Assembly: GCF_037975245.1 (NCBI RefSeq)
Contig: NC_092572.1
Span: forward strand, 10,232,769-10,296,768
Length of the DNA: 64,000 nucleotides
DNA from: Apostichopus japonicus
Lineage: Eukaryota; Echinodermata; Holothuroidea; Aspidochirotida; Stichopodidae
Reading direction: 5' to 3'
The position numbers and the translations under genes are program-made. Positions 9,265 to 63,406 of the stretch are shown here, one piece after another. Under the pieces are notes generated by a model. That model saw only the letters and a list, made by a program, of their open reading frames with translations, did no database searches and was not told where the DNA came from. Each line of letters begins with the position of its first letter. Within the stretch, counting starts at the first letter, position 1.

Positions 9265-9310
9265 ATGCCGATAATCGTATTACTGCTACTCGGATCAATA
9301 TCATCCAACG
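9265..9310 (+). CDS. Locus A exon 1: signal peptide
   Basis: The ATG at 9265 opens a short hydrophobic leader (MPIIVLLLLGSISSN) and is followed by a GTAAGT donor at 9311. The exon ends after one base of a codon (phase 1), matching the acceptor of the first Ig exon. An ATG upstream of a hydrophobic run and directly before an Ig exon is the usual layout of secreted or membrane Ig proteins. The leader is short, so extra 5' coding sequence is not excluded. Confidence 0.75.
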
Positions 9311-12300
9311 GTAAGTTAAACATATTTGTGATAAATGTGTTAATGTTACGTGGGTATCCGTGTCATGCTTACGAGATGACGCCTAAACGAATAACGATAT
9401 GTCTATTTATATTTTAGATTAATTGTGCTTATTCAGAACCGAAATCACAACATGTTGACCTTTATATCCAATCCTGTAAGTGCTCGTTATTCTAGTGCAT
9501 GCAGAAATTACCAAGTCTCCATCGAGTGGTATCTACCTGGAAGGTAGTGATGTTACATTGACTTGCGTTGTTGAAGGAAATGACAACGTTGTATGGGATG
9601 ATCTCAATTATGCAACATCGATTTTCATTGGCAAAGACAAGAACACAGACAAGAAGAAGTATGACAACTTTGAGATAAGTTCAGTTGTTGAAGATTTCAG
9701 TTTAATTATCAAAGACTTCCAGTTATCAGATGAAGGAACCTACGTATGCAAGGACAGAGACCGACTTGCAAATGCCACAGTAACAATCGGAGGTAATACA
9801 TTGCAAAGTTCTAAAACCTATTTAAAGCTAAAACAATTCAGTTTCAAGACAATTGAGGAAAATTAAGCACATGAGAGAGCAATCATTGCCTTTTCTTAAT
9901 GAACATGATCAACTTTATTGTCTTTGTTGTTATGTCAGTCACCTATCAATCGTATAACAAACACTATTTTCAATCACATTGTCCCATACACGTATTTAAA
10001 TATCGAACTGTGATACTCATGAATGTAGTTTAATTATATAATTTGCAGTTGTAATTCAAAAATTATGACGCACACAGAGGCAATAACATTGCAGAAGGTT
10101 GTTCATAACTTGTGTAACTTTAATTGCGTTCAAGCTGGGGCTTATCATATATGTTAATCTGTCGAATCGTATCTTACATTGACAGTTTTACCATACGTGT
10201 ACCTCTCTGTAAAGCAAACAGAAGCTACACAAGCACCGCATACAAGTACAGAGGTCAACATTACGTGTTCTGCATACAACGCTAGACCTGCTGTGTCTGT
10301 GTTCGAGCTAAGTGTCATTGGCAGTGAGAAGACGGTAAATATCACAAACGATAAATCCAATCAAAACGAAGATGGAAATACCTATAATTCATCAGCTTCT
10401 GTTTCTTACATCATGTCATCAGAAGAAATGTCTGTATATTGCCGAGTATTTACAGCCGGACGGTCGCTCAGTCACACTGAAAACTTCTGTAAGTACTGTG
10501 TTATGTTTATCAATGGTAGATGTCTAAGCTGAAAACGGCTTGAGGGAAAATCAATAGAAAACAGATTTAGAGCCCAGGAATGAGAATGCTCTATAGAAAA
10601 TCTAATAAAAAAATAACTATGGAATATCAAACGTATTACGTAATCAATGGCGGTTTATTGTGTACTGTGGTGAGGACTTAAGAGCTAGCTTCCAAAGCAA
10701 GCGTATTCAATCAAACAGGAAGAGTTTCACTTACAAATATTACACAAGATAGTTTGGAGGTTACTTAATAATATAAAATGTCTTCGATCCCTGCCTTCGT
10801 CATTCCTTTAATAGAGACTCGTTAAAGAATGGCGCAATTTAATAAAAGTTTAATAAAAATTATAAATTGTGAATTTTATTTTAATCTTTAGTCACTTTCG
10901 ATGTAGGATCTAATAGTACCATTTTAAGCCACTCGATGTCCAGTTACACTGGAGGATTATCGCATCAGTGGTACAACAACATACATGGGAATGGTGTCAA
11001 TGTTTTTTTGCTAATAGTTTTCCACAAAACATGCTCTGATCAATGACAAGAATCTTTTATCTTCAACTCAAATAGATAAACCGAGATGCAACATAACAAT
11101 CTCTGGTAACGAGATTAGATGTTTATGCCAAGCTAATCCACAAGTGAACACTTATTACATAGACGTTAATGGAAATAACCACGACGGGGATGTTTTGTTT
11201 ATTGAAGAAGACGATCCGATGAATATTAGATGTTTTGCTACAAATGAATTAGGAACCGGGCAATCTGATATTCTGTTTCCTGACGACATTAATGGTAAGT
11301 GCATGTGTTGTTATAGAGGCATGGACCCTATAAGAAAAGCAGAGTGGGTAGTGTTTCTTAATTTGTGGTAAAAAAAATGAAAGACAATAAGCTATTAATC
11401 CCTTTTCATGATGGTGTCCTAATACCGGAATGTCTGTACAACTTGCATTTTGTTTCCTTAATGAGGGTTTTCCGCGTGAGTGGAATAAATGTAATTATCT
11501 CGCATTTTTGCTCTCGGCTCCTGGGGGCGTATGGGAAAGTATTTAGAAACCAGAACGCATTTTTTCAGTAGACAGAGAGAAGATGGCCTATAACGGATGC
11601 TTCATTATTTTCACAAGTAAGGATTTTTAAGTTAATATTTTGTTTTGTTAAGAAACGAAAAACCAACTTTCTCAACTTTCCTCTCTGAAAAAGGTTTTGG
11701 TATAGTCCCAGTAGCAGTGATCGTGTCAGTTGTTGTCTTACTGGTGGTTCTAACAGTTATATTCATCATATGTCGACGCGGTCCGAGGGAAAAGAAATCA
11801 GACGGTATTTATGTATCTTTGTAGATATAAACGGATGCAATTATATGAATGCATGGATAGAAGTTTTGATGGAAGGATGAATGGATGGATTGGTAGGTGG
11901 GTGGTTGTTTGAGTGGGTCACTGACTGCATGCTGGTAATATGCATGCCTGGCTGGATGTAATAATGCATGTGTGAATGTGTCGATGGTTTCCTTGATCGA
12001 TAAGTGGGCGGCTGGGTACAAGAATATATGTGTGAATGAATGGATTAATAGATGAATGGATGGCTGGTCGATCGGGTTGCAACATGAATGGATGGATGTG
12101 TTGATGGAAGAATATATCCATTTATAAATGAATGATTAAATGTATGGAAGAGATGCATATTTGATATGGTATATAATTAATATTCTATTTTCCTGATAAT
12201 CTATATTTTCTGTCAATGAAATATATCAACAGCAGTACTTCACAGGTGATACGATGGCAGCAAATACCTCTGATGTTAATGTCTCCGAATAGAGATTTTA

Positions 12301-15300
12301 CTTACCTTGCAAAGCAAAAGCATATCTTTGTTATATGAACTAACAAATGGTTCACAAAGTCGAAACATTAATCTTTAGTACCATCAACAGTGGTCAAATC
12401 TTTAAATCTGTAGACGAAAGCTGATAGATGACGCTACATATTTATATTAATCTTGAATGCGTAAATTATATGGCCTGACGAAACAATGATTTTTAAGAAG
12501 AAAGCATTCCGCAGTTGCTCCTTTTGCTACAATTGGCTCGCGTGTTCTACATCCGACTTCTGAAAATGAACCACTTTCGCAACTGAAAGTCTGGAAGTGG
12601 ACTGCTTGTCGCGTAAGTTGACACTGTAATTCAAAAGCGCACTGTCCAAATTAATTTGCACAATAATTTACATTACCAATAATTAATTCTTAAATACAAA
12701 CTACAACTGCATAAATTCCCGTTAATTCGTCAAGTCGAATGACATGCAACAAAGGCATTGGTGTTCTACTACTGATCATTCTAACTGGATACCCATCAAT
12801 TAGTTTCGCATGGAGTGTAGTTTTTAGTTTCGATGTATATATTTTTCAATTAAAACAAATAGTATAGACATTGCTATGAACTACATATCGCTACACAGGC
12901 CTAGGAAGCATACGTGGAAAAGTCCTAGCTTAGATATGAATATTCGCAAGGCCAGCAAGTTCTTACTAATAGTATTACACTACATTAGCCTATATTATGC
13001 ATGTTTGTAACATTCATCAACATAATGCTGAAGTGAACATTATTTGTCTAGCGAGATAAGTTAACTTTCGGATTAATTGCGTATCTACTAGAGGTTTTGC
13101 TTGGAGAATTCTGATAACCAAAAAAGGTGAGGCAATTCACATTACTGATGCTTTCTTATTTACTTACAATGATATCCACGATATCGTAGCAATGCTGATT
13201 AGACTGAAACAATTGTATTACATCAACTGTTTAATTGATTTAGAACTTATACATCCTGTTAGTACCGAAACACCTTTCAATACTGCAGTAGCAGAGCTCG
13301 CGTCAACTTGGATAAATACGTCTAACAACAAGTGTGGTAATCAGATGCTCATATTGAAAAAAAAGAAGAAAATACTCTTTGCTGATTTTTAGATTTAATA
13401 AGGTCATAAGAATAAGTTTGGAAATCTTAACTCGAGTCAAGATAGTACAATGTATGTAACATTCTATGCAGCTGATCTAATAATATGCATGAATGAAGGT
13501 ATGATTCATTACACCGAGCTTTTAATAATTACATAATAATAATTAAAATAATAAATAATAATTACTACACATTTTCCCCTCTTTTATATTTTGAATGTCG
13601 TATTCAAAATGTTTCGTTTTGATAGAGATAATATTGATGATCTTCCCACAGAAGAGCAACCTACAGAACAACATTGTGCTAACAAGGAGGAAAGTGTCAA
13701 TCTACTCCCTCAGTCGTGAGTAACTTGAAACAGTGCAGAGCGCAATATTAAATACAATTTTCAAAATGGCATTTGTTACTTTAACCTAACTCTACCTTCT
13801 TCCCTTTGTTACTTTTGCATAAGTATACGTTCTTACGTCTGTTCTTACTATCTAAATGTGATTTGTATAACAGTACTCCACATCAGCTGGAAGTTTTGTT
13901 AAACATTGTTACTAACCTGTTTGCTTTTTTCCGTTTTCTTAGAGAACACATACCACCTGGTAACGAAGGTAATTATAATATAAAGTATATTAAACAACAT
14001 TTCATCTGCTTCCATAGCAAATAACTTTGATAAAGATATAAGAAATTGTTGGTATCGTCGCGCGTTTCTTTTTGATAGAGATAATATTGATGATTTTCTT
14101 CCCACAGAAAAGCAACCTACATTACATGGTGCTAAAAAGGAAGAAAATGTCAATCAACCCTCTCAGTCGTGAGTCACTTTAAACAGTGCAGAACGCAATA
14201 TTTAATCCATTTTTCGAAATTGCATTTGTTACGTTAAAATAACTCTACATTCTTGCCTTTGTTACTTTTCCATAATTATACATTCCTACGTCTGTTATTG
14301 CTATCTAAATGTGATTTGTATAACAGTAATCCACATCAGCTGAAAGTTTTGTTAAACATTGATACTTACCTGTTTGCATTTGTCTTCCGTTATCTTAGTG
14401 ACCACATACCACCTGGCAACGAAGGTAATTATAATATAAATTATATAAAACATCATTTCATCTGCTTCTAGCAAATAACTTTGACTAAAATATAAGAAAT
14501 TGTTAGTATCACCACACGTTAGTTTTTGATAGAGATGATAGAGATAATATTGATGATTTTCTTCCCACAGAAGAGCAACTAACAGTACAGGGTGCTAAAG
14601 AGGAGGAAAGTGTCAATATACCCTCTCATTCGTGAGTAACTAGAAACAGTGCAGAGCGAAATATTCAATACAATTTTCGAAATGACATTTGTTACTTTAA
14701 CCTAACTCTTCATTCTTGCCCTTGTTACTTTTGCATAAGTATACATTCTTACGTATGTTCTTGCTATCTCAATGTGATTTCAATAACAGTATTCCACATC
14801 AGCTGGAAGCTTTGTTAACATTGATATTAACCTGTTTGCATTTGTTTTCCGTTATATTAGTAGACACATAACACCTGGCAACGAAGGTAATTATAATATA
14901 AACTTTATAAAGCAAAGTTTCATCTGCTTCTAGCAAATAACTTTGACTAAGATATAAAAAATTGTTGGTATCGCCTTACGATGAAAAATTTAACTGTTGG
15001 TGGACATTAATTACTGTACGTAAAACGAGGCATATCACAAACACTTTACAATCCTATGTGACTACTACATACTTTTTGCACAAATGAATATTAAGAACAT
15101 TGTGTTGCTAACACTAAGCCCACATGTATTCTTTTACTCTATAGAAATGTCCGATAGAAAAAATACCAATGATGAGGAAGCTTCACGTCTCTCTCCTAAA
15201 CTGTGAGTAGTGGACTTTTCTATCACAATTAATAGAAGTATAACAATTCAATTTTTGTCTTCGAGAAAGCAAATGCATCGTTATTTAACAATGTTAGCAC

Positions 15301-18300
15301 ACTTGTTTCTTTTTGTTATTTCCTTCAGTGAATCATCATTTCCAAAAACGGATCTAACCAGCGACTTAAAAGGTACAGATTTATGATTTTACTTCCATAC
15401 CTCACATGACCGATGTTAACAAGACCATGCCGTTAACACACCACCATACAATAATAACTACGTTCTCTAGTACTAGAAACTGTTTTTGTTAACAGAATTA
15501 TTTACTGAGATAATCCAAAATCCAAAATCGAGTTCGGTGGTCTTGAAAACATGCTAAAATGAACAGTAAACTATGGTATTTCAGAAAATCATCTTATAGT
15601 TTCCTTTACAAACAAAGCACAAAGCTGTCGTCACTCATAGTTGTTAGAATGCAAATGCAAGTTACACACTTTGCTCAACAATATTTACTCATTCAGGGTT
15701 ATAGTATCTTAACACTTTCTGATATTGCAGACGTGTGTGTGATACTTGTTTTTAACGTTTTATCATCTCTTGATCCAGAGCAATGCTGTGTGGACAAGCA
15801 TTTATGTCAAATGCGAACGTTTACATTGTATTCTCTAATTTGTTCTTTTAATCCGTTGTCAGAGGAAACAATATGGTAAGAGAAACAATTTCAAAAGAAA
15901 CGCAAAATAAAGTTGGCATTTTAAGCAGTTGTGTTTGTTCAAACTACACAAACTTAAATCATTGTCTTCAAGATACATGAATTCATTCTTTGGATAGTAT
16001 TGGCTAGGCACTCATCTTTAAGAAAACTATCGAGGATATAATAGAAATTAATACATGTATATTTCCACCCTTAAGTTTTCCAGCCCAAAAATTACTGTAT
16101 TTGTGGGGTTATTATAAATATCTATTTAGATTGAGAATTCATCGCACACTTCATGATGTCACACAGTAGCTTATATATATATGTATATATATATATATAT
16201 ATAACAAGAACACGTGGATGACACAGAATCAGTTTCTCAGTATAAAAAAAAACCTGTCAAATGATCATGTATATTGTACCATTTGACAATACAAATGTAG
16301 ACGTTATTCTACTTCATGAAAACATCTATAGTACCATAATTAAGTAGTAGTAAAACAAGCTAGTAAAATCATACGTGTGGAGTTGACCTGACCTAAGCCT
16401 TTTCATACTTAAGAAAATGATGGTATATTATGACCATTTTGATCAAAATATTGTGTGACATTTAATAAAGCTTGGTCAACAAATATGGAAATATTGTTTG
16501 TTTATTATGTCTATTTAATTTCATAGATCCACAGAAGTTCATAAGTAAAATTCTATTACAAGTGAATAAAGACTGGGAAATTTTCGCCATTGAAATATTA
16601 AACATATCTGAAAAAGTTGTGAAAGAAGCAGTGATGAAAAATAACAACTTAGAAGGTGAGAATTTCATTATTTTGTTTAAGAATTGATATAGATGCAAAC
16701 TTGCAAATAATATAAGAAAATTATAAAAGTGTTAGACTATCTATTTCATTGTTTTGGATTTCACCAGAATTGTTTGTATAAAATTAATCGTCCGCATGAT
16801 TCTAGATTATATTCAATTCGATTGTACTTTTGCATTGAAATAATTCTTGGCATTGATTTCCTCGCAGACCAAATAAACGCAGCTACTAAAAATATGACAT
16901 CTTATCATATCGAGGTATTAGACGAAAATGCAGAATTGTGTGAGGAATTCGGCTTTGAATACGTTAAGCGAGAAAAGGGATGCTTCTTACTACACATTAA
17001 CAACACACAAGCTGGTAAGTGTATTTAGTTATTTACCCTTCTCAAAATTTGTTGAGAGAAACCATTTTGTTTGAGTTAGTGGAATCCTAAGATCTTAGTA
17101 GCAGGTCCTTTCTTCTAGTGTCTGCAATGTCTCTGCAAGTTATTTCTTACTAAACTACTTGGAGAGGGTGGGTAAATATTCCCTTTACCACCGCCCGGCT
17201 TCGAAGCCAATGAAAATAAGTTATCATATAACCAGTTTCAATCTAAAACACTTATAACTGTATTGTTTAATTACTATTCTGCATGTTAATCTGCACGTGT
17301 CGTGTAATTATGTATTATCATGAGTATGTTATGCAATATTGATATAATACTCTTCCCATCTTTCGTTTTGAATTGCAAAGGGCTCTACAACACATTAATT
17401 CTGATTTTATTTTGTCTTTAATATCTAAACATGAAATACAACTCATTAACTTCCCGCTTCAGCTCCGATTTAGACTACATTTATCGTTTTTTTTAATAAA
17501 CACAATTGAATGTGGCAGTAGATTTCTGCTACTTTTATAGTGTGCAAGTTCTTAACGAAATTGGTGATTTCGTGGTATATTTTCTTGCAAACGCCTTTTT
17601 CTAAAGTATTTGTAATTGATAAATTCAATTTTAAATTTGAAGACATTTTTTTTTCATTTTAGACTTGATTCTAGAAGCATCTCAGGAGAATGATCCTACG
17701 AATATTTCAAGCAGGTTCGTTTGTCTTTCTCTCTTTAGTTGAAATAAGTCTTAAAAGTAAAACATCATACGATGACTGAGAGGAACGAAATAATCCAGTC
17801 ACCATTACATGTCATAATGCAGTCATTGAAACAAGACAGATCTAATTGAAAATTTGTTTCTACATTCTTCTACTACTTTTTCCCCTCAAAGTGACGACAT
17901 ATTAGTCTCATGTGGATTCAGAATTGGTAAAATTGGAATTAAGAAACTTTTGGAAGCATTCGGCAAAACGTGTATTGGAAGTGCGGATGGTGCCACTATC
18001 TTGAAAACGTTAGAGCAGACGAATGTGATAGGGAAACCGTATGTCAATCTTCTGCGACAACTTACAAATTGCAAAATCTATGGAGCGAGGAAAATACTTC
18101 TTTTTTATATCGAAAAAGGTTGGTGAATTATAATATTGCAAAGTTGACTACCATATTGTCAAGGTCGTACAAATTTACAAAGCGTTTTTAGTTCTATGTT
18201 ATAGGTCTACAAGATCACAGTATTTGAATGTCAATGTGAAGCGTTTGTATGTTACAAACAATTAATATTATATGTGTTAATATTATTTCACAAGTGAGAA

Positions 18301-21300
18301 TATATTTCGATTTAATAACTCACCTGAAAATAATATCACGGTATCAGCGCCCTTGTTTAAGTAAGTAATAAGAAATAACGGAACTATTTTGACATGCACT
18401 CCTATGACAGTGCGTATTTTTACAGGTATTCAAATATTTAATTCGTAAACATATAATCTATTGTGATCCATAATTTACTATATAATATAGTTTACTCTCT
18501 GAAGTCATTGTTCCGTTCCGTAGCTTTGGTTGCATTTGTTAGAAATTGAGATTAAAGTGGATTGTACGGATGACACGGTAATATGGTTGCACCATCTGTC
18601 ACAATTTCTTTGGGAATATTATGTTCTAGCTTTCCTCGAATACTGGGGTGTTTCAGATGACCACACAAAAGATGAGATAAACACAAGATTTACTATTTTA
18701 CAATATAAATAAGAAAACAAGGAAACATAATCATCGGTTCCTTTCCGGTTGGATATCTTTTAACTTAGCTTTTACTTTCGATACTTATGATACTTTTGTT
18801 ATTAAATACTAGGACGCAATCGTCCACCTCCGGCACCTACACTAGCCATCCAATTCAGTCCCTGGGGTTAGCCACTATATGAGGAACGTCTATCCCAGAT
18901 TAGAAGCCATAACATGGCTTTTATAGGATACAGGCAACAAGCTCGGGACCTTGTGTTCAGCGTCGTAACTCAGTACAGTGTAGCAGCTCCTATAAATTTT
19001 ACTCGTATTATATGATAAATCGATGCACTTTCTCGATTTTAACCACAAGCTATTTTTGAGGCAACTTTCTAGCCTGGCTGAATTACAGGTGTTGATGCCT
19101 GAAGCTCCTTCAAGAGACTGATCTTCTCCCAGCCAATAACTACTTTAGACTTGGGTGTGACTAGGCTCACTTTGGAAATATCCACCCTTTTTCCACTGAA
19201 GGTGTGGCAGATTTAACCATGGAAGTTTCCATCACTATACAATTCTCTCTGAGATGATGTAATATTACCTAATACACCATAGCTGGAGGTTAAGCCATGG
19301 AAACACTCTCCTACACCACAATACAAATGTCACAGGGATTAAGCTGGACTTCCGGTGGGGAGGATTTCCTCTACTAATCTAGGAGGATAAAAATCAACAA
19401 CAAGTTTTGACAACATCACCATCACAACAATTATATGTCCCAATTACGTTACTTTCTTTTCAAATTATGTGTTAGATCTACAACAACTAAAGGCCACCAT
19501 ACGTAACCATGTGAAGAATGACTGGGAAATATTTGCAATCGAAATTTTAGACATACCAGAAAAACTTGTAGAGGACGCGGTAATAAACTACGACACTTAC
19601 GAAGGTGAGGTGTACTATTGTGTTCTTATTGCATATATATCGATGTTATTTATTAAATGAATACAACCCAATTACTAGAAGTAAAATGGAAGAATCATCT
19701 GAAAAAAAAAATGTTTTGAATCTGAGTTTCAGTCCGCTATGATGGACGCATTAGTGTTACTCCTCGATAATTATCCGGAAATAACAAATATTATTTACAA
19801 TTTTTTTGTAGATCATATTGAGGTAGTTATAAGAAAAATAACAGCGGAGCATATTGACATGATGAACGACATCAAAACGCATAACAAGTTGAAGAAAAAA
19901 AATAAACTGTCGGAGTTTAACCTTCAATCTGTCGAGAAAGAAGGTAGATATTACTTTAGAAACCTGGAGAGCACACAATCTGGTAAGACTTTTGGTGTGT
20001 TTCCCACTGTTAAAAGACTAAAGTTTAAAGCAGTTACGAGTTACAAAAACCAACAATATCATAAAAGAAGGCTTGAAATGTTTGTATCATCCCTTTAAGT
20101 ACGTATTGCACAGTACTCAAAGAATACCCAGAGGTGATTACGTGTTAACAACCCACATTTATACATTTATGTGTGTGTTTGACCTCACAAGTAAGTCATT
20201 ATGCTCCAGCCATCATCATCCACCTCTCACAAATTGAAATAAGTTGCAAACAAGTATACACGTATCTTTGTCGTTGGATTATTATTTATAAGTAGCACTA
20301 GTATATAGTATACTAGTGTCTTACTCTCATACTGCAATTATCGACTTTTCTTGGAATTTCAGAGGTTAACTACGTATCTTATAAAAATAATTGCGAACAG
20401 TATTATTCGTATGTTACTAATTTTTTTTTTACTCTTCAGAAAAATCGCCAAACGAAGAAAAAATCTGCCAAAAAGATCCACCAACTATCGAGAGCAGGTC
20501 TTTCAACTATCTTTATTTATTCTATTATGTTGAATATATAAACCTGTAGTTTTTCTTAGTCTTAATGTCTAATGTCTATTGTGGCCGCAATGTATACAAA
20601 CAATGTAATAAATGCGTATACTAGCACATGTTTCAAAAACGACATGTTTGGTCTAATTTTCTATTCTCATTTCTTATTCCATTAACCATGTCCTTTGATA
20701 ACAAAAGAGACTGTATGTTAAAGTTATGCAGAGAGAGGATTGGGAAAGTTGGGATCCGTAGACTGTTGGCAGCATTGAAAACAGGCAACATTGAAACTAA
20801 AGATGAAACCAATATACTGAAGAAGCTGTATGAACATGGAGTAATAAACAAAAACTGTGCAAATTTGTTGTCAAAGCTTTCAGACTGCAAGCTGTTTCGA
20901 GCAAGAAAGATAGTGATTGCTTATTTAGAAGCAGGTTTGTTATAAATTTTAAATTTAAATGATATGAAGAAATGTGATACAAAGTCTCAATGAACTATCT
21001 TGAAAACTCTGAAAGTGCTTCATTTGTTCATTAGATTGCATCACTGAGCTAGGTATTGGTAAAAATTATATATGTATAATTATAATAATTTCAGCAGTGG
21101 TTTCTCTTGCTTTGAATCTGGTAATTTTAATATTTTAAAATACTGCTCTATAATTTTAGAATAAAAAATAAAAAACCAATAAAGCTATGTTGGTATAACT
21201 GTTGCTATTCTTACCATTAAAAGTTATTGCGAATTTGTTCCTTGTCTTGTTTGAAATGCCCGTCCCCGTACATCGGTACAGTCAAACAGGCGAGGGCTGT

Positions 21301-24300
21301 AAGCGCGTACGCGTAAATATGGAATGGTGTAGATGTTATATAAAATACTGAAAAAAAATACCAAAATCCATATTATTAGAGCTGAACTAAAGTTAACCAC
21401 TGTGGATCTGACATATTGATGTTAATATATTTCCTTCGAAACATATGTTCATTTTCACTCATTACCATGACTATTCCATCACAGACCTTTGGAATTACAT
21501 CACCAATAGCATCTGTCCACAAATATCTGTAGACTGGGAAATATTTGCAGTTGATGTCCTGGGCTTGGAAAATTGTTATGTGGTGGAAATAATTGAACAT
21601 ACCAAGGACGAGAAGGGTACGTCTTATTTCAAACGCGCTTTGTCTTTAAGTTCATTGAAATGTAACACAACTATATGTTTTGATGCAGCACATTGTTGTT
21701 ATCATTCTCAGTAAAGGCAAATGAGTACTGAGGCGGTGCAAGGTTATTAAATCTAAGTAGAGAGAGCACAGAAGTTAATTTCCAAGGGTAAGATGATTTT
21801 GCTTTGATAGTTAATCACCAAAATAACTGCCCGGTATAATGCATTTTTGATGCATTTTGCAGCACAATTAATTATCCCAGTTTGAATGTTTTAAAACCCC
21901 AAACACCCAAACCTCTGCTTCGCCGCTCCTGACTAAGTATTTTAATACCCTTTGCTCTTAAAAATACACTCGCTATTCCAATAATTGACAACAACAAAAA
22001 ACATACAAAACGGTCGCAAAGGACTTTGGAAAAAGGAAATGTGATTGTGATGTGATATCAAAAGAAAGTTATAGAAAGAACCAAAATAACGGCCTGTTAC
22101 AATGAATCATCGATGCTTTTTTTCAACATATTGCAACACATTTCTTTTTCAAGGTTGAATGGATTCCCACAAATGGCACTCTGTGTTCTATTTGTTAACT
22201 TTTACTTCAATATCTCCGAAAAGTTGTCTGAATTCTGAAAAACACAAGCACATTCACAATGGTCAAAAACAGAACAAAAGGGGTTTAATGTTTAAAGGAT
22301 AATGTTTTCTTGATAAGTGTTAAGTTAAATAACAAATCATTTAGAGAGTAAACTACTGCTAGTTGGTTGTATTGCTACTTATTTCGGGGAATACGTTCAT
22401 GAATTCTTGAAAACCTTCCTTAATTCATGTAAGTAACCATTTCTTATGTAAAAGATCAGACAATATAAATCAATATATTTGATTTTCTGTTAACTTTTCA
22501 GAGCAAGTGCTGAGCATGTTTAGAAAATGGAGGTATATGTATGGTCAGCGGAAGGAAGTTTCTAATCAGATTCTTCAAGATCTCATCTACGCCAAAAATA
22601 TCAGCAGTAAAATAATGTCAAAAGACAACAGACCAAAAGATAATACTGCTTTAAAAGGTATGAAACATTGCATAGAAGTGTACCGAACTATCAGCCTGAA
22701 TCAATGTAGAGTAATGGTAATGAAATACAAATTGAAGAAACGTTCTGATAATTAGATTCTAGAAAGTTAAATTGTTATCAAGTGATGTTTAAAAGATTCT
22801 GACAAGTTTAAATTCAAGTCACTATCTACCAATACTTTTAAATTTAGGTATTTGTTTCGGGCAGCAGGGTTGAAATATTAAGTTTCTTGAAGCTCGCTCC
22901 GCTCAATGATTTTATAACGTACGGGAAAAATAGTGGAGCAGCAATTATATCTATGTGCAGAATATTTTGATCTTACTTAATTACTTTTATAGTCTCATAC
23001 CTCACTATACCTCAAAGTTATCATCACATTGAACATTATTATCTACGAGATTGTAATTTACAATCAGTATAATAGCTGTTTTTGTTTCTTTTATTTTTAG
23101 TGAAACCCATCAACGAGGGTGGCTGCAGGTACACACTTTTACAATATTTAAAACTGTTTTTTTTTTACAATTTATTTCCTGTGATCAAATGTGTCTTGCT
23201 ATGAAATTGAACTCATTTTACAAGTAACGGACATGTACCTGTATTACATGGGGTTCTCAAAATACAATGTATTATAATCATTTTCATCAGTTGAAACGGA
23301 CACAAACAATAAAAACCCATTTTTTTCATTGGCAGTAAAGATTTTTTGGCGATGTTAACAAATTGTAGCAAGAGAATTGGCGTTGCTGGAAGTAAACGAT
23401 TTGCAGAAATCAATTCTCAGGGTGGAATACGCAAATTTCTAGTTGCGACTGGTGTAGTGGGTGCATCCGCTGAAGCACCAGAGGGGATTTCGGTGGATGA
23501 CAGCGTTGACTCTTTAGGACAATTGTGCTCTATGTTGAGTAAAGCAAACCTATTTACAGCAAGAGATGTGGTCATAACCTACATTGAGAAAAGTAAGTGT
23601 TATACCTTGTCATTCCACATTAAATTCGCTTGGCTGATATATTATCAAACCTTGAATCTTTTTATTTTACACGTTTTGCTGTATAGGCGACTATTAATGT
23701 ATTTTGTTCTTCATTAGTTAATACATTTGCCGTTTAACGAAGGTGAACGGAATATGAAAACATTGTAAGTCGGTCATATTGACCTAACTGCATTACCATT
23801 CTAATATGTTTGTAATGCCAAAGATCTAAGAGTAATTCTTGGTAGAAATTCAATTACGCCATTAGCTTAGATGATGTAAGAGTAAATCAGTTATTGCAGA
23901 AAATTGTCGAATTTATTCTATCAAGGAAACCTTCTCAACGCATGAGGAGCCTAAGGTATCTGTCCTACTGTTTTTTGAAAATCCGTACCAGTGCCCATAT
24001 CATTTTTACATGTGCTCCTTTAGATGAAAAAAGTACCACCCCTATATTCGTAAAATGTGCCCTTTTTCTACATTAAATGGTGCCCTATTGTTGCAAATCA
24101 TTCAAATATTAAATTTCATTTTCTTAAAAAAAGTCACGTGTACCTTTCTCCTACGATGCTTGATCACCCACAGATTGCACGCTCTTCCACGAATCATGTG
24201 TATGCTATGATCCAATATAAATGTCATGTGGTCTATTCGTTGCAATCTCATTCATATTTTAGAACTAAAGGATGTAATAACACAAATTTCAAAGAAGAGA

Positions 24301-25209
24301 GCATCTACTTGGGATAAATTAGCATGGTATGGCTTATCCCTATCCAACGAGGATGTTGTTCACATAGAGAGAGCAGAAAAGTCAAACGAAGGTAAGTAGT
24401 CTGTGTTTCATGAACGTTGAAATATGTAAATACCATCATGTATAATCGGTACACTTAAAGTTTTGACATTGAACTTGCTCGTAGAATATACATGTTCCTT
24501 TAACGATACAATTTTTACTCTTGTCCTACATAACACTGTACCTCACTGAAATAAAATAAACTCGTCTTAAGATGTAAAACATGTGACATAACTGGCATGA
24601 ACTGAAAAAAACTACTGATGGAAGTTAATCTTTAGGCCATGGGTATTTACGTTCTTAATATCTTTCAAGAGGATGTCAAGAGGATGTTATAGTAATAACT
24701 GTTGATAACAGTAGTCAAGCGCCCAATATTAACATCTATTTCCCTCAAAAGTTGTTATTGCCTTTCTTTTAGAACGAGTGCGCATGGCTATCTCCAAGTG
24801 GATGAGAAAAACGGAGATCTGTGAAGATGTTCAGCAAACATTGATGAAAAAAGCCCAAATAACTTTCCCCGACTTGGGTAAGAAGTATTTTAATAGAGTT
24901 ATATATTAGTTCGATTATTATGACTGTTAAGCGAAATTACACATACTTGTTTTGCTCCGACAATTAAGATTAATTTTGGAAAAGGACTGGCATTGGGAGA
25001 GAAGAATCAGGCTTGAACAAATTTCGAAAGACAATGTCACATGCGAGTTTGAATAGAGGAGGCAATACACAAACCCTGTAAAATGAATGCTTTTCTTGCA
25101 CAGAAACTATTTAACATATACATAACATGACATATATTATGTATCATAATAATATATAGATGACGAAGAGAACATTTTCATTTCAAAAATTGAAGTTTTC
25201 ATTAACTAA
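9265..25209 (+). CDS. Locus A: Ig-superfamily receptor with DD/DED-like tail (multi-exon gene model)
   Basis: Predicted single-pass type I membrane receptor. Exons of the long form: 9265-9310, 9496-9792, 10186-10488, 11076-11294, 11694-11804, 13652-13715, 13943-13968, 14108-14168, 14399-14424, 14571-14631, 14861-14886, 15145-15202, 15329-15372, 16527-16655, 16868-17014, 17663-17714, 17892-18118, 19476-19604, 19812-19982, 20440-20497, 20708-20934, 21485-21616, 22502-22657, 23101-23128, 23336-23592, 24263-24391, 24773-24877, 25160-25209. All have AG/GT borders and compatible phases, and they sum to 3,339 nt (1,112 residues plus stop). Domain order is signal peptide, three Ig, TM, acidic linkers, DD, then three linker-DED-DD modules. 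A short form uses the stop exon 12246-12292 (340 residues). The main doubt is whether the Ig-TM part and the death-fold array are one gene or two adjacent genes. The same order in locus B, and phase-1 joining at the boundary, favour one. Confidence 0.62.
9496..9792 (+). CDS. Locus A exon 2: V-type Ig domain
   Basis: A 99-codon phase 1-1 exon, the classic Ig exon symmetry. It carries a B-strand cysteine (VTLTCVVEG), a C-strand tryptophan (NVVWDD) and an F-strand motif with an acidic residue and Tyr-x-Cys (SDEGTYVCK), so the disulphide pair is intact. It is clearly paralogous to locus B exon 3 (42364-42648): both have a Pro-Ser-x-Gly start and a KYDNF motif in mid-domain. It should lie outside the cell and bind a ligand, which is unknown. 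Confidence 0.88.
10186..10488 (+). CDS. Locus A exon 3: C-type Ig domain
   Basis: A 101-codon phase 1-1 exon starting after TTGACAG and ending before GTAAGT. It shows NITCSAYNARPAVSVFEL (B and C strands with the Asn-Ala-x-Pro motif common in C1/C2-like domains next to a V domain) and SVYCRVF (F strand). The C-strand tryptophan is replaced by Phe/Leu. Several Asn-x-Ser/Thr sites suggest N-glycosylation. The locus B counterpart is 43608-43916. Confidence 0.87.
10892..11074 (+). pseudogene. Decayed Ig half-exon in locus A
   Basis: After an acceptor-like TTTAG the plus strand reads an Ig-like fragment (VGSNSTIL, then HQWYNN with a C-strand-type Trp) until a stop near 11044. A second frame then runs open straight into the next exon (LINDKNLLSS). 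The switch of frame between the two halves suggests an indel in an older, longer Ig exon. No clear donor is present. It is left out of the gene model because locus B lacks a convincing equivalent and the model is in frame without it. Confidence 0.4.
11076..11294 (+). CDS. Locus A exon 4: membrane-proximal Ig-like domain
   Basis: A 73-codon phase 1-1 exon encoding a compact Ig-like domain: RCNITISGNEIRC near the start, a glycine/asparagine-rich turn, then MNIRCFATNELGTG, a typical F-G hairpin with Cys and Asn-x-x-Gly. It has the same length (219 nt) as locus B exon 5 (44927-45145), including an identical NITISGNE block, so it is under constraint. A GTAAGT donor follows. Confidence 0.82.
11694..11804 (+). 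CDS. Locus A exon 5: transmembrane helix and stop-transfer
   Basis: A 37-codon phase 1-1 exon starting GFGIVP, followed by about 22 Val/Leu/Ile residues and then a basic cluster (CRRGPREKK) marking the cytoplasmic side. Locus B exon 6 is exactly the same length (111 nt), starts GFGIF and has the same basic end. This fixes the topology: Ig domains outside, everything encoded 3' inside. Confidence 0.88.
11866..12110 (+). repeat. GGAT/GAATG-rich imperfect minisatellite, locus A intron
   Basis: An imperfect array of ATGGATGG, GAATG and GGCTGG words directly 3' of the membrane exon. A related array is at the same position in locus B (45777-45990), so it predates the locus duplication or was copied with it. 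The open frames on the minus strand here are by-products of the repeat. Confidence 0.8.
12246..12292 (+). CDS. Locus A short-tail terminal exon (stop)
   Basis: After a CTTCACAG acceptor, 15 codons and a TAG are read in the phase left by the membrane exon (GDTMAANTSDVNVSE). The locus B counterpart (46140-46189) also joins in phase 1, also gives 16 codons including the stop, and shares the Thr-x-Asp-Val-Asn core. Using it gives a receptor with about 30 cytoplasmic residues and no death-fold domain. It may be the true 3' end of the Ig gene or an alternative end. No AATAAA lies close downstream in locus A; the nearest seen is at 13550. Confidence 0.66.
12293..13608. other. Non-coding, possible 3'UTR or intron of locus A
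   Basis: No convincing exon. Parts of 12540-12660, 12720-12840 and 13030-13100 resemble locus B 46710-46820, 46905-47000 and 47175-47235 in the same order. The open frame at 13192-13392 has no splice support or paralogue. The sequence may be the untranslated end of the short-tail form. Confidence 0.5.
13652..14886 (+). CDS. Locus A linker array: three tandem two-exon units
   Basis: Three copies of a pair of mini-exons: an acidic exon (13652-13715, 14108-14168, 14571-14631; phase 1-2; cores such as EEQPTEQ and KEEESVN) and a 26-nt exon (13943-13968, 14399-14424, 14861-14886; phase 2-1; core HIPPGNE or HITPGNE). The pairs repeat about every 460 bp together with their introns, which share blocks such as the CTTCCCACAG acceptor and GTGAGT donor. 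They would encode a disordered, acidic, Pro/Gly/Asn-containing stretch just inside the membrane. No known domain. The copies differ by whole codons only, so the frame is kept. An ATG at 13609 is in frame with the first unit and could start a separate transcript, but the matching ATG in locus B is followed by a stop. Confidence 0.68.
15145..15372 (+). CDS. Locus A fourth linker pair
   Basis: Two exons, 15145-15202 (phase 1-2, MSDRKNTNDEEASRL) and 15329-15372 (phase 2-1, SSFPKTDLTSDLK), diverged from the three preceding pairs but with the same phase pattern. The second has the same length (44 nt) as locus B 48504-48547. Acidic, Ser/Thr-rich, probably disordered. A further possible exon starts at 15496 (ELFTEII), similar to locus B 48607-48645 (DELFHST), but it has no good donor. 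Confidence 0.62.
15373..16526. other. Intron of locus A; one long chance frame
   Basis: AT-rich intron with a short (TA)n run at 16172-16202. The 106-codon frame at 15559-15879 has no splice support, no start context and no similarity to neighbouring exons, so it is not called. Confidence 0.5.
16527..16655 (+). CDS. Locus A death domain 1, first half (helices 1-3)
   Basis: A 43-codon phase 1-1 exon. It carries KDWEIFAIEIL followed by an amphipathic stretch (ISEKVVKEAV), matching helix 2 (Asp-Trp-x-x-Leu-Ala) and helix 3 of death domains as in FADD. The exon is exactly 129 nt, as are its paralogues at 19476 and 24263. Predicted cytoplasmic homotypic interaction surface. Confidence 0.72.
16868..17014 (+). 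CDS. Locus A exon after DD1a, diverged second half
   Basis: A 49-codon phase 1-1 exon in the position of a DD second half. It is similar to 19812-19982 (shared pattern of a Thr-x-x-His-Ile early and Gln-x-Gly at the end) but lacks the Trp seen in helix 4-5 of units 3 and 4. It may be a strongly diverged second half of the death domain or another short helical module. Confidence 0.6.
17663..17714 (+). CDS. Locus A linker exon 1 before DED-like 1
   Basis: A 52-nt phase 1-2 exon (LILEASQENDPTNISS) between a TTTTAG acceptor and a GTTCGT donor. Its phase 2 end fits only the DED-like exon type that follows. Linkers at 20440, 23101, 27555 and, in locus B, 59634 play the same part. Confidence 0.6.
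17892..18118 (+). CDS. Locus A DED-like domain 1
   Basis: A 227-nt phase 2-1 exon. It encodes a six-helix-type sequence: RIGKIGIKKLLEAF, then ILKTLEQTNVIG, then LLRQLTNCKIYGARKIL and an aromatic-acidic end (FYIEK). The second half matches the death effector domain layout seen in FADD and caspase-8 (a Leu-rich helix, a loop with a hydrophobic-polar pair, then Leu-Leu...Tyr-Leu). The exon length is identical to DED-like 2. It could be another death-fold subclass (CARD or Pyrin), but pairing with a following DD favours DED. Confidence 0.68.
18811..19400. repeat. GC-richer intronic insertion, probable dispersed repeat
   Basis: This stretch is clearly less AT-rich than the introns around it, has no exon signals that fit the locus phases, and lies between DED-like 1 and DD2. 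Base composition suggests an inserted element, but I see no terminal repeats or coding domain, so the class is unknown. Confidence 0.35.
19476..19604 (+). CDS. Locus A death domain 2, first half
   Basis: A 129-nt phase 1-1 exon with NDWEIFAIEIL and IPEKLVEDAV, near-identical in layout to DD1a. It follows DED-like 1, giving the DED-DD order. The acceptor is GTTAG and the donor GTGAGG. Confidence 0.73.
19812..19982 (+). CDS. Locus A exon after DD2a, diverged second half
   Basis: A 57-codon phase 1-1 exon, lysine-rich in the middle (KLKKKNKL) and ending in ESTQSG, paralogous to 16868-17014. No Trp of the DD helix 4-5 region. Predicted helical. The acceptor TTTTTGTAG has a strong pyrimidine tract. 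Confidence 0.6.
20440..20497 (+). CDS. Locus A linker exon 2
   Basis: A 58-nt phase 1-2 exon (SPNEEKICQKDPPTIES). The donor GTCTTT is weak, but the phase fits the following DED-like exon exactly. Acidic/basic, probably disordered. Confidence 0.55.
20708..20934 (+). CDS. Locus A DED-like domain 2
   Basis: A 227-nt phase 2-1 exon, aligning without gaps to DED-like 1: RIGKVGIRRLLAAL, ILKKLYEHGVINK, LLSKLSDCKLFRARKIV, AYLEAG. The shared Arg-Ile-Gly-Lys start, Cys-Lys pair and Ala-Arg-Lys-Ile block define this DED-like subfamily. The acceptor is an AAAAG with only a modest pyrimidine tract, so the start rests on alignment. Confidence 0.68.
21485..21616 (+). CDS. Locus A death domain 3, first half
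   Basis: A 44-codon phase 1-1 exon with VDWEIFAVDVL and a hydrophobic helix 3 (CYVVEIIEHTK). The acceptor is CATCACAG and the donor GTACGT. It pairs with 22502-22657 to form a full death domain. Confidence 0.73.
22502..22657 (+). CDS. Locus A death domain 3, second half
   Basis: A 52-codon phase 1-1 exon starting EQVLSMFRKWRYMYG, with a Trp in the helix 4-5 region, then a Leu-rich helix (NQILQDLIYAK). This is the expected second half of a death domain (basic helix, Trp, polar loop, Leu-x-x-x-Leu helix). A Lys/Asp-rich tail follows. Confidence 0.7.
23101..23128 (+). CDS. Locus A linker exon 3 (28 nt)
   Basis: A very short phase 1-2 exon (VKPINEGGC) between a TTTTTAG acceptor and a GTACAC donor. 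It is called only because phase and position match the other linker-DED pairs. Confidence 0.45.
23336..23592 (+). CDS. Locus A DED-like domain 3
   Basis: An 85-codon phase 2-1 exon, ten codons longer than DED-like 1 and 2. It has RIGVAGSKRFAEI, then a Gly/Glu-rich insert, then LGQLCSMLSKANLFTARDVV and TYIEK. The C-terminal half aligns well with the other copies; the extra residues lie between the first and second helices. It ends in A rather than G before GTAAGT, so the junction codon is Lys. Confidence 0.68.
24263..24391 (+). CDS. Locus A death domain 4, first half
   Basis: A 129-nt phase 1-1 exon with STWDKLAWYGLSLSNEDVV and HIERAE. This is the most canonical DD half in the window: Trp-x-x-Leu-Ala, then Leu-Ser, then an Ile-Glu motif just as in FADD-type and ankyrin-type DDs. 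Confidence 0.8.
24773..24877 (+). CDS. Locus A death domain 4, second half
   Basis: A 35-codon phase 1-1 exon opening ERVRMAISKWMRKTE, closely like the helix 4-5 junction of FADD-type death domains (Glu-Arg-Val-Arg...Trp), then VQQTLMKKAQI and a closing Asp-Leu. Together with 24263-24391 it makes a complete, intact six-helix DD. Confidence 0.8.
25160..25209 (+). CDS. Locus A candidate terminal exon
   Basis: After TATATAG, 16 codons end in TAA at 25207-25209 in the phase left by DD4 (DDEENIFISKIEVFIN). It closes the long model in frame. No AATAAA is seen nearby, and splicing past it to 27555 is equally compatible in phase, so this end is provisional. Confidence 0.45.

Positions 25210-40868: not shown

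Positions 40869-63406
<22,538 letters not shown>

Follow-up and report, generated by a model that had tools for sequence, protein, structure and literature searches.

Background

In vertebrate death signalling, a receptor with one death domain (DD) acts together with FADD, a separate adaptor of the DED-DD type, and with a caspase that has a DED. FADD itself has a single DED-DD unit and is free in the cytosol, and TNF-receptor-type death receptors (Fas, DR4/5) are membrane receptors with a cytoplasmic DD and cysteine-rich repeats outside. UNC5 receptors have the order Ig-TSP-TM-ZU5-UPA-DD. Vertebrate paired Ig receptors are encoded by clustered genes and have similar ectodomains with differing signalling tails. 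In Apostichopus japonicus, AjNLRC4 has been described as an Ig-TM-NACHT receptor whose Ig part binds microbes directly (PMC8699970), and oyster HEPN-Ig-DED-TRADD-N proteins have been described as a lineage-specific expansion in which the same polypeptide has both Ig repeats and DED (PMC8195603).

Here we analyzed a window of 64,000 nucleotides (C12:10232769-10296768) of the A. japonicus genome (671.6 Mb, 35 contigs). Positions without a contig name refer to this window, and the features described in it are on the plus strand.

A receptor gene with a tandem death-fold tail

All 28 exons of an earlier model of gene A (9265-25209), which came from gene finding by eye, were located in the DNA. They have AG acceptors, GT donors and phases that match throughout, and the spliced gene encodes 1,112 residues followed by a stop. 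The layout claimed by the sequence-only reading, i.e., Ig exons, a transmembrane (TM) exon and DD-[linker-DED-like-DD]x3 on one strand with matching phases, was exactly re-assembled, and it agrees with the NCBI model P0001 (1,130 aa, uncharacterized protein isoform X2, 6 member sequences), which, like the other NCBI models used here, is itself a prediction. P0001 is the protein of gene A: the gene A tail matched it with 100% identity over 98% of the query, and it includes the Ig domains as well as the tail. Compared with our model, P0001 is 33 residues longer at the N-terminus, upstream of the model's Met, is one residue shorter in the third linker repeat, and its end reads '..FPDLGI', two residues past D4b, so that the terminal exon with a stop (25160-25209) of the sequence-only reading is unused.

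A putative signal-peptide exon (9265-9310, phase 0-1, from exon re-assembly) is followed by three Ig exons, all of phase 1-1. Ig1 (9496-9792) matched Pfam V-set (33.2 bits, cut-off 26) and I-set (30.1 bits, cut-off 23.7), Ig2 (10186-10488) matched C2-set_2 (24.1 bits, cut-off 21), and Ig3 (11076-11294) matched Ig_PDGFR_d4 (30.4 bits, cut-off 27), this last match extending into the TM exon. The Ig families above Pfam cut-off in gene A were V-set, Ig_3, I-set, C2-set_2, ig and Ig_PDGFR_d4. An extra exon between Ig2 and Ig3 (approximately 10892-10990) was also considered; P0001 does not use it. The TM exon (11694-11804, phase 1-1) contains a hydrophobic stretch. With Ig matches above cut-off and one TM segment, the latter judged from the sequence, gene A would encode an Ig superfamily membrane receptor. 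The TM exon had phase 1-1 at all 10 loci where it was found, and the paralogue tails diverge after its junction.

Past the TM exon, the sequence reading had also placed an alternative, in-phase short-tail exon with a stop (12246-12292), which is doubtful. We rejected it as a conserved short-tail isoform: the related locus A2 is without the acceptor used here and the exon of A3 is frameshifted. A stretch similar to it is present in gene B, the second receptor gene of the window, near 46.15 kb. Two other segments past the TM exon and outside the modelled exons are alike in genes A and B, with 83% DNA identity between 12587-12668 and 46747-46828 and 78% between 13031-13097 and 47165-47231.

The tail consists of linkers followed by D1-E1-D2-E2-D3-E3-D4. 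Eight small linker exons (13652-15372), found by re-assembly and also in P0001, include a two-exon unit repeated three times in near-identical form (13652-13715/13943-13968, 14108-14168/14399-14424 and 14571-14631/14861-14886) and a diverged fourth pair (15145-15202/15329-15372). The following cassette, linker(1-2)-E(2-1)-Da(1-1)-Db(1-1), is phase-1 symmetric, and its duplication is therefore frame-safe. Re-assembly, P0001 and Pfam support, at the level of the gene model, an Ig ectodomain, a TM segment and a tandem death-fold tail in a single gene; the predicted protein has an ectodomain of three Ig domains, a single TM helix and the cytoplasmic order DD'-E-DD'-E-DD-E-DD.

Gene B (40869-60135, and continuing beyond the window) is a tandem paralogue, which was modelled with the same order as gene A before its NCBI counterpart, P0013, came up. 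Its modelled exons comprise a signal exon near 40869, four Ig exons (41696-45145), a TM exon (45636-45746) and a tail of linkers (48269-49221), D (50261-51639), K+E (57598-58300), D (58520-59099), a further linker (59634-59724) and X (59972-60135). P0013 extends past the window end and shares all exons with our model except a linker (48607-48645) and the terminal exon (63188-63222). The second-half DD exon of gene B is duplicated in tandem (51218-51303 and 51472-51639), the first copy ending at an in-frame stop, and a similar pair of matches was seen in a relative, C, at C12:10184178 and 10184426.

Death domains and DED-like modules

On the whole gene A tail, Pfam Death (PF00531) scored 28.2 bits against a cut-off of 22.6. 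It was also above this cut-off in P0001 (22.9 bits) and P0007 (32.9 bits) and below it in P0005, P0006, P0010 and P0013, as well as in every D module taken singly. The modules were also scored with a DD HMM built from six loci (L006 and L008 were excluded for a stop codon). D3 (21485-22657, exons 21485-21616 and 22502-22657), a complete death domain and the best Death stretch of the tail, scored 12.8 bits alone, which was reached by none of 2000 shuffles, and D4 (24263-24877, exons 24263-24391 and 24773-24877), also complete, scored 10.2 bits, reached by 5 of 2000. D1 (16527-17014) and D2 (19476-19982) each combine a DD-like first half (16527-16655 and 19476-19604) with a divergent second half (16868-17014 and 19812-19982); singly they gave no signal, their scores being reached by 644 and 695 of 2000 shuffles, and their second halves showed none with the DD HMM. 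For the two D modules of gene B, the scores were reached by 259 and 1494 of 2000 shuffles. In blastp among seven modules, the first halves of D1 and D2 were similar to D3 (E 1e-6 and 2e-4, respectively), and D1 and D2 are alike over their full length (32%). In hhalign, a chosen set of five D modules (D3 and D4 of gene A, D4 of P0007, D3 of P0005 and D1 of gene B, with D1 and D2 of gene A omitted) matched six DDs of the same genome with a probability of 73.6 and E 2.9e-5, and a D3/D4 profile searched against PDB sequences found CRADD at E 0.18. By sequence, then, D3 and D4 are recognizable as DDs singly, and D1 and D2 appear death-domain-like in their first halves only.

Each E module is preceded by a linker: K1 (17663-17714) and E1 (17892-18118) at 17663-18118, K2 (20440-20497) and E2 (20708-20934) at 20440-20934, and, from the re-assembly, K3 (23101-23128) and E3 (23336-23592) at 23101-23592. 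The structure of the E module was predicted for E2 (model m14db592f3511) from a 19-row alignment that included E1, and among the matches listed, 24 of 24 PDB entries were death folds, as expected from the sequence-only reading. The model aligned with both DEDs and DDs, FADD's DD included, so that structure ties DED with DD. Only this model was used, since a prediction for P0007 with 8 rows had a pLDDT of 41.6 and meaningless matches.

Pfam DED (PF01335) found no match up to E 10 in E1-E3 or in the two E modules of gene B, while 45 matches were detected elsewhere in the same genome, none of them inside the cluster described below. Many exons with genuine Pfam DED matches are grouped at C16:10.24-11.09 Mb; these could encode possible partners or belong to another expanded family. 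Profile-profile comparison of the E modules with the human FADD DED and A. japonicus DEDs gave no match, but a DD-versus-DED control was also blank, and this comparison is therefore insensitive. A DED HMM built from eight loci and FADD detected a signal in 8 of the 25 E modules scored, equalled by none of 1000 column shuffles; for single E modules the score was reached by 1 to 82 of 2000 shuffles. However, rotated E sequences scored nearly as high (up to 4.96 versus 5.15 bits), and this signal therefore rests on a local motif; the alignment registers also vary among E modules. An E profile matched only unrelated chains among PDB sequences. Based on the predicted fold, we place the E modules in the death-fold superfamily, DED-like by fold and by a weak local sequence signal. 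DED-then-DD order, with DED-like meant in this sense, occurs three times in gene A at the exon level. Of the earlier claim of DED-like and DD modules, the death fold of E and the DD nature of D3 and D4 hold, whereas E has no Pfam DED match and D1 and D2 were not recognized singly; likewise, in an HMM search of the spliced model, the Ig families and, over the whole tail, Death were above cut-off, whereas DED gave no match.

A tandem cluster with two kinds of tail

A genome search with the Ig3 exon yielded 16 matches, 14 at C12 9.83-10.28 Mb (13 on the strand of gene A and one, at 9,868,154, on the opposite strand) and two at 23.1 Mb. The latter, at C12:23116117-23126188, are Ig3-like exons with 35-38% identity. 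All 12 matches of the E2 exon were at C12 9.90-10.26 Mb, a lower bound, as E3 and gene B's E were missed and distant copies elsewhere are possible. Five of the six E1-E2 pairs are preceded by an Ig3 exon, and no other tail intervenes. In our survey of the cluster (192 kb read in addition to the window), array-tailed loci A2, A5, A3, A4 and gene A are on one strand, and so are three kinase-tailed loci, K1, K2 and K3 (C12:9881661-9891941, L048-L049; 9985096-9995094, L036-L037; and 10091494-10101568, L042-L043). Gene B and its relative C, whose later exons are known from P0010, lie on this strand as well and have a second, B-type array. The D2a exon was not found in A3, and within the 10 kb examined, 9.829-9.835 Mb contained only Ig exons.

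NCBI models join Ig and array at five of seven Ig+array loci, i.e., A (P0001), A2 (P0003, which ends after D3), A5 (P0005), C (P0010) and B (P0013), and two further joined models, P0002 and P0004, are on other contigs. A4 is divided by NCBI into P0009 (Ig and D1) and P0007 (E1 to D4), and no NCBI model matched A3. In P0005 (C12:9946469-9969121), D1 and E1 are separated by a long linker of TDATNNQAPR-type repeats, and the end of the model resembles, by eye, a reverse transcriptase, probably a transposon read into the model. Directly behind the kinase receptor K3, at C12:10116220-10129066 (L044-L045), P0006, also on this strand, is a death-fold array without Ig exons, which may stand alone as an orphan or serve the TM exon of K3 as an alternative tail. 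The recurrence of this architecture across loci is more than chance.

Two kinase-tailed models, P0011 and P0012, have the same ectodomain (69% and 66%, respectively), and their tails matched Pfam PK_Tyr_Ser-Thr with 97.7 and 58.8 bits, respectively. P0011 has VVIT, HPG and DFC in place of the catalytic motifs VAIK, HRD and DFG that kinases normally have, and P0012 is without the middle of the stretch that holds them; the kinase-family tail thus looks like a pseudokinase, and the sequences of these two models make this assignment probable. Both have a YxxM motif near the end. In a tree of Ig1-2, K1 grouped with A, A2 and A4 (95/96), and well-supported branches require at least two changes of the kinase label, whereas in a tree of Ig3, K1, on a long branch, grouped with B, C, A5, K2 and K3 (100/99), and such branches force only one change. 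The simplest reading would be exon shuffling or gene conversion among cluster members. In the tandem cluster, the common phase-1 TM junction is followed by one or the other of two kinds of tail, probably owing to tail exchange among members. The layout proposed in the sequence-only reading stands, but that reading overlooked this cluster and its exchangeable tails, including the probable pseudokinase one.

Pairwise dN/dS was estimated with our own Nei-Gojobori script among A, A2, A3, A4 and the orphan array. The values were 0.21-0.94 for Ig exons, 0.62-0.92 for E modules, 0.36-1.35 for DD first halves and 0.57-0.91 for DD second halves. The inner array is at least as free to change as the outer part, and the tail range of 0.36-1.35 is looser than expected for a strictly kept signalling surface. 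No stop codons occurred in the exons compared across the same five loci (A5, B and C were left out, and A3 was used without D2a), a result that is partly by construction, since these exons were chosen as tblastn stretches. Neutral simulation gave a mean of 4.5-8.6 stops per tail, and single runs can yield none.

Possible function and alternative explanations

We lean, by somewhat more than even chances, towards a cell-surface Ig receptor whose cytoplasmic death-fold array would seed DED/DD assembly without a separate adaptor, and the gene models suggest a death or immune receptor with a built-in adaptor. Ig-mediated binding or clustering would gather many death-fold modules at the membrane, and these may seed helical DED/DD assemblies and recruit DED/DD partners such as a caspase-8-like protease, FADD or an IRAK/MyD88-like kinase. 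The output in coelomocytes could be cell death or of the NF-kB type. The genome contains 45 DED and at least 150 Death matches, and possible partners therefore exist. As the Ig part of AjNLRC4 is reported to bind microbes, microbial recognition is, by analogy, a likely input. The kinase-tailed siblings, with their common ectodomain, could give a different output, as in paired receptors. More tentatively, and with the balance against it, the locus might be a paired-type germline cluster, in which one Ig family with a phase-1 TM junction carries either a FADD-like array or a YxxM pseudokinase tail, the tails being swapped by exon shuffling and the array evolving at least as fast as the ectodomain.

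A rather doubtful alternative is that the array serves as a scaffold, an inhibitor or a decoy, whose degenerate DD/DED modules restrain partners or signal to NF-kB or phagocytosis. The non-DD second halves of D1 and D2, tail dN/dS values of up to 1.35, above most Ig values, and the distance of the E modules from any Pfam DED would fit such a role, and AjNLRC4 (Ig-TM-NACHT, A. japonicus) is reported, in its description, to drive phagocytosis (PMC8699970). However, D3 and D4 are recognizable DDs, E retains a complete death fold in the predicted structure and the compared exons have zero stops. It is unlikely that the locus instead makes two products, one an Ig receptor whose tail is short or contains only D1, the other a distinct cytosolic array protein expressed from a downstream promoter: the division of A4 into P0009 and P0007, the Ig-less P0006 (C12 10.116-10.129 Mb) and the in-phase short-tail exon with its stop could be read this way, but NCBI joins Ig and array at most of the Ig+array loci and in P0002 and P0004, P0007 starts within the E1 exon, as expected of a truncated model, and the short-tail exon is not retained as such in A2 and A3. 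That exons of unrelated neighbours were combined by annotation or assembly is highly improbable; although genes were found by eye and NCBI models are also predictions, the order recurs at further cluster loci and joined models occur on other contigs, and this repeated architecture already largely refutes an artefact.

Comparison with known systems

The favored reading, a receptor with its own array, can be compared with several systems. Gene A resembles FADD in the unit order, here DED-like then DD, and the E model aligns with DEDs and DDs, including FADD's DD; however, gene A has approximately three such units within a transmembrane receptor, its E modules fail Pfam DED, and the Ig and TM exons in the model and P0001 distinguish it from a stand-alone cytosolic adaptor. 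It shares with the TNF-receptor-type death receptors a membrane receptor with a cytoplasmic DD, but differs from Fas and DR4/5 in its Ig ectodomain and in having DED-like modules in cis; its ectodomain matches above Pfam cut-off were Ig families only, with no cysteine-rich TNFR repeats. UNC5 also combines an Ig ectodomain with a cytoplasmic DD, whereas gene A has several death-fold modules, not one, and TSP1, ZU5 and UPA had no Pfam match in the gene A model, its tail or the NCBI family models. The C12 cluster is similar to vertebrate paired Ig receptors in its clustered genes, similar ectodomains and differing tails, but its members have a death-fold array or a probable pseudokinase as their tail, not an ITIM or charged-TM tail.

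AjNLRC4 is from the same species and, as described, likewise fuses an Ig ectodomain to an intracellular immune module; its description (PMC8699970) sets it apart by NACHT in place of a death-fold array and by two TM segments, and NACHT had no Pfam match in the gene A model, its tail or the NCBI family models. The oyster HEPN-Ig-DED-TRADD-N proteins, also of a marine invertebrate, are described as having Ig and DED, as gene A has Ig and DED-like modules, but with HEPN, TRADD-N, WD40 or cGAS-like domains, and the Ig-TM-(DED-DD)n layout is absent from the descriptions considered (PMC8195603). Protein searches found relatives in A. japonicus only, with limited sensitivity, as some scored a capped list of candidates and missed gene B's own protein, and a search of limited sensitivity of titles and abstracts in the open-licence literature found no Ig-TM-(DED-DD)n receptor. 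Within these limits, Ig with DED is known from the oyster and single-DD Ig receptors from UNC5, and Ig-TM-(DED-DD)n was found only in A. japonicus. If true, a receptor with several DED-DD units would merge the receptor and adaptor steps in a single protein and allow adaptor multivalency to be tested directly, and a cluster with one ectodomain family on two tails would be an independent invertebrate case of paired receptors.
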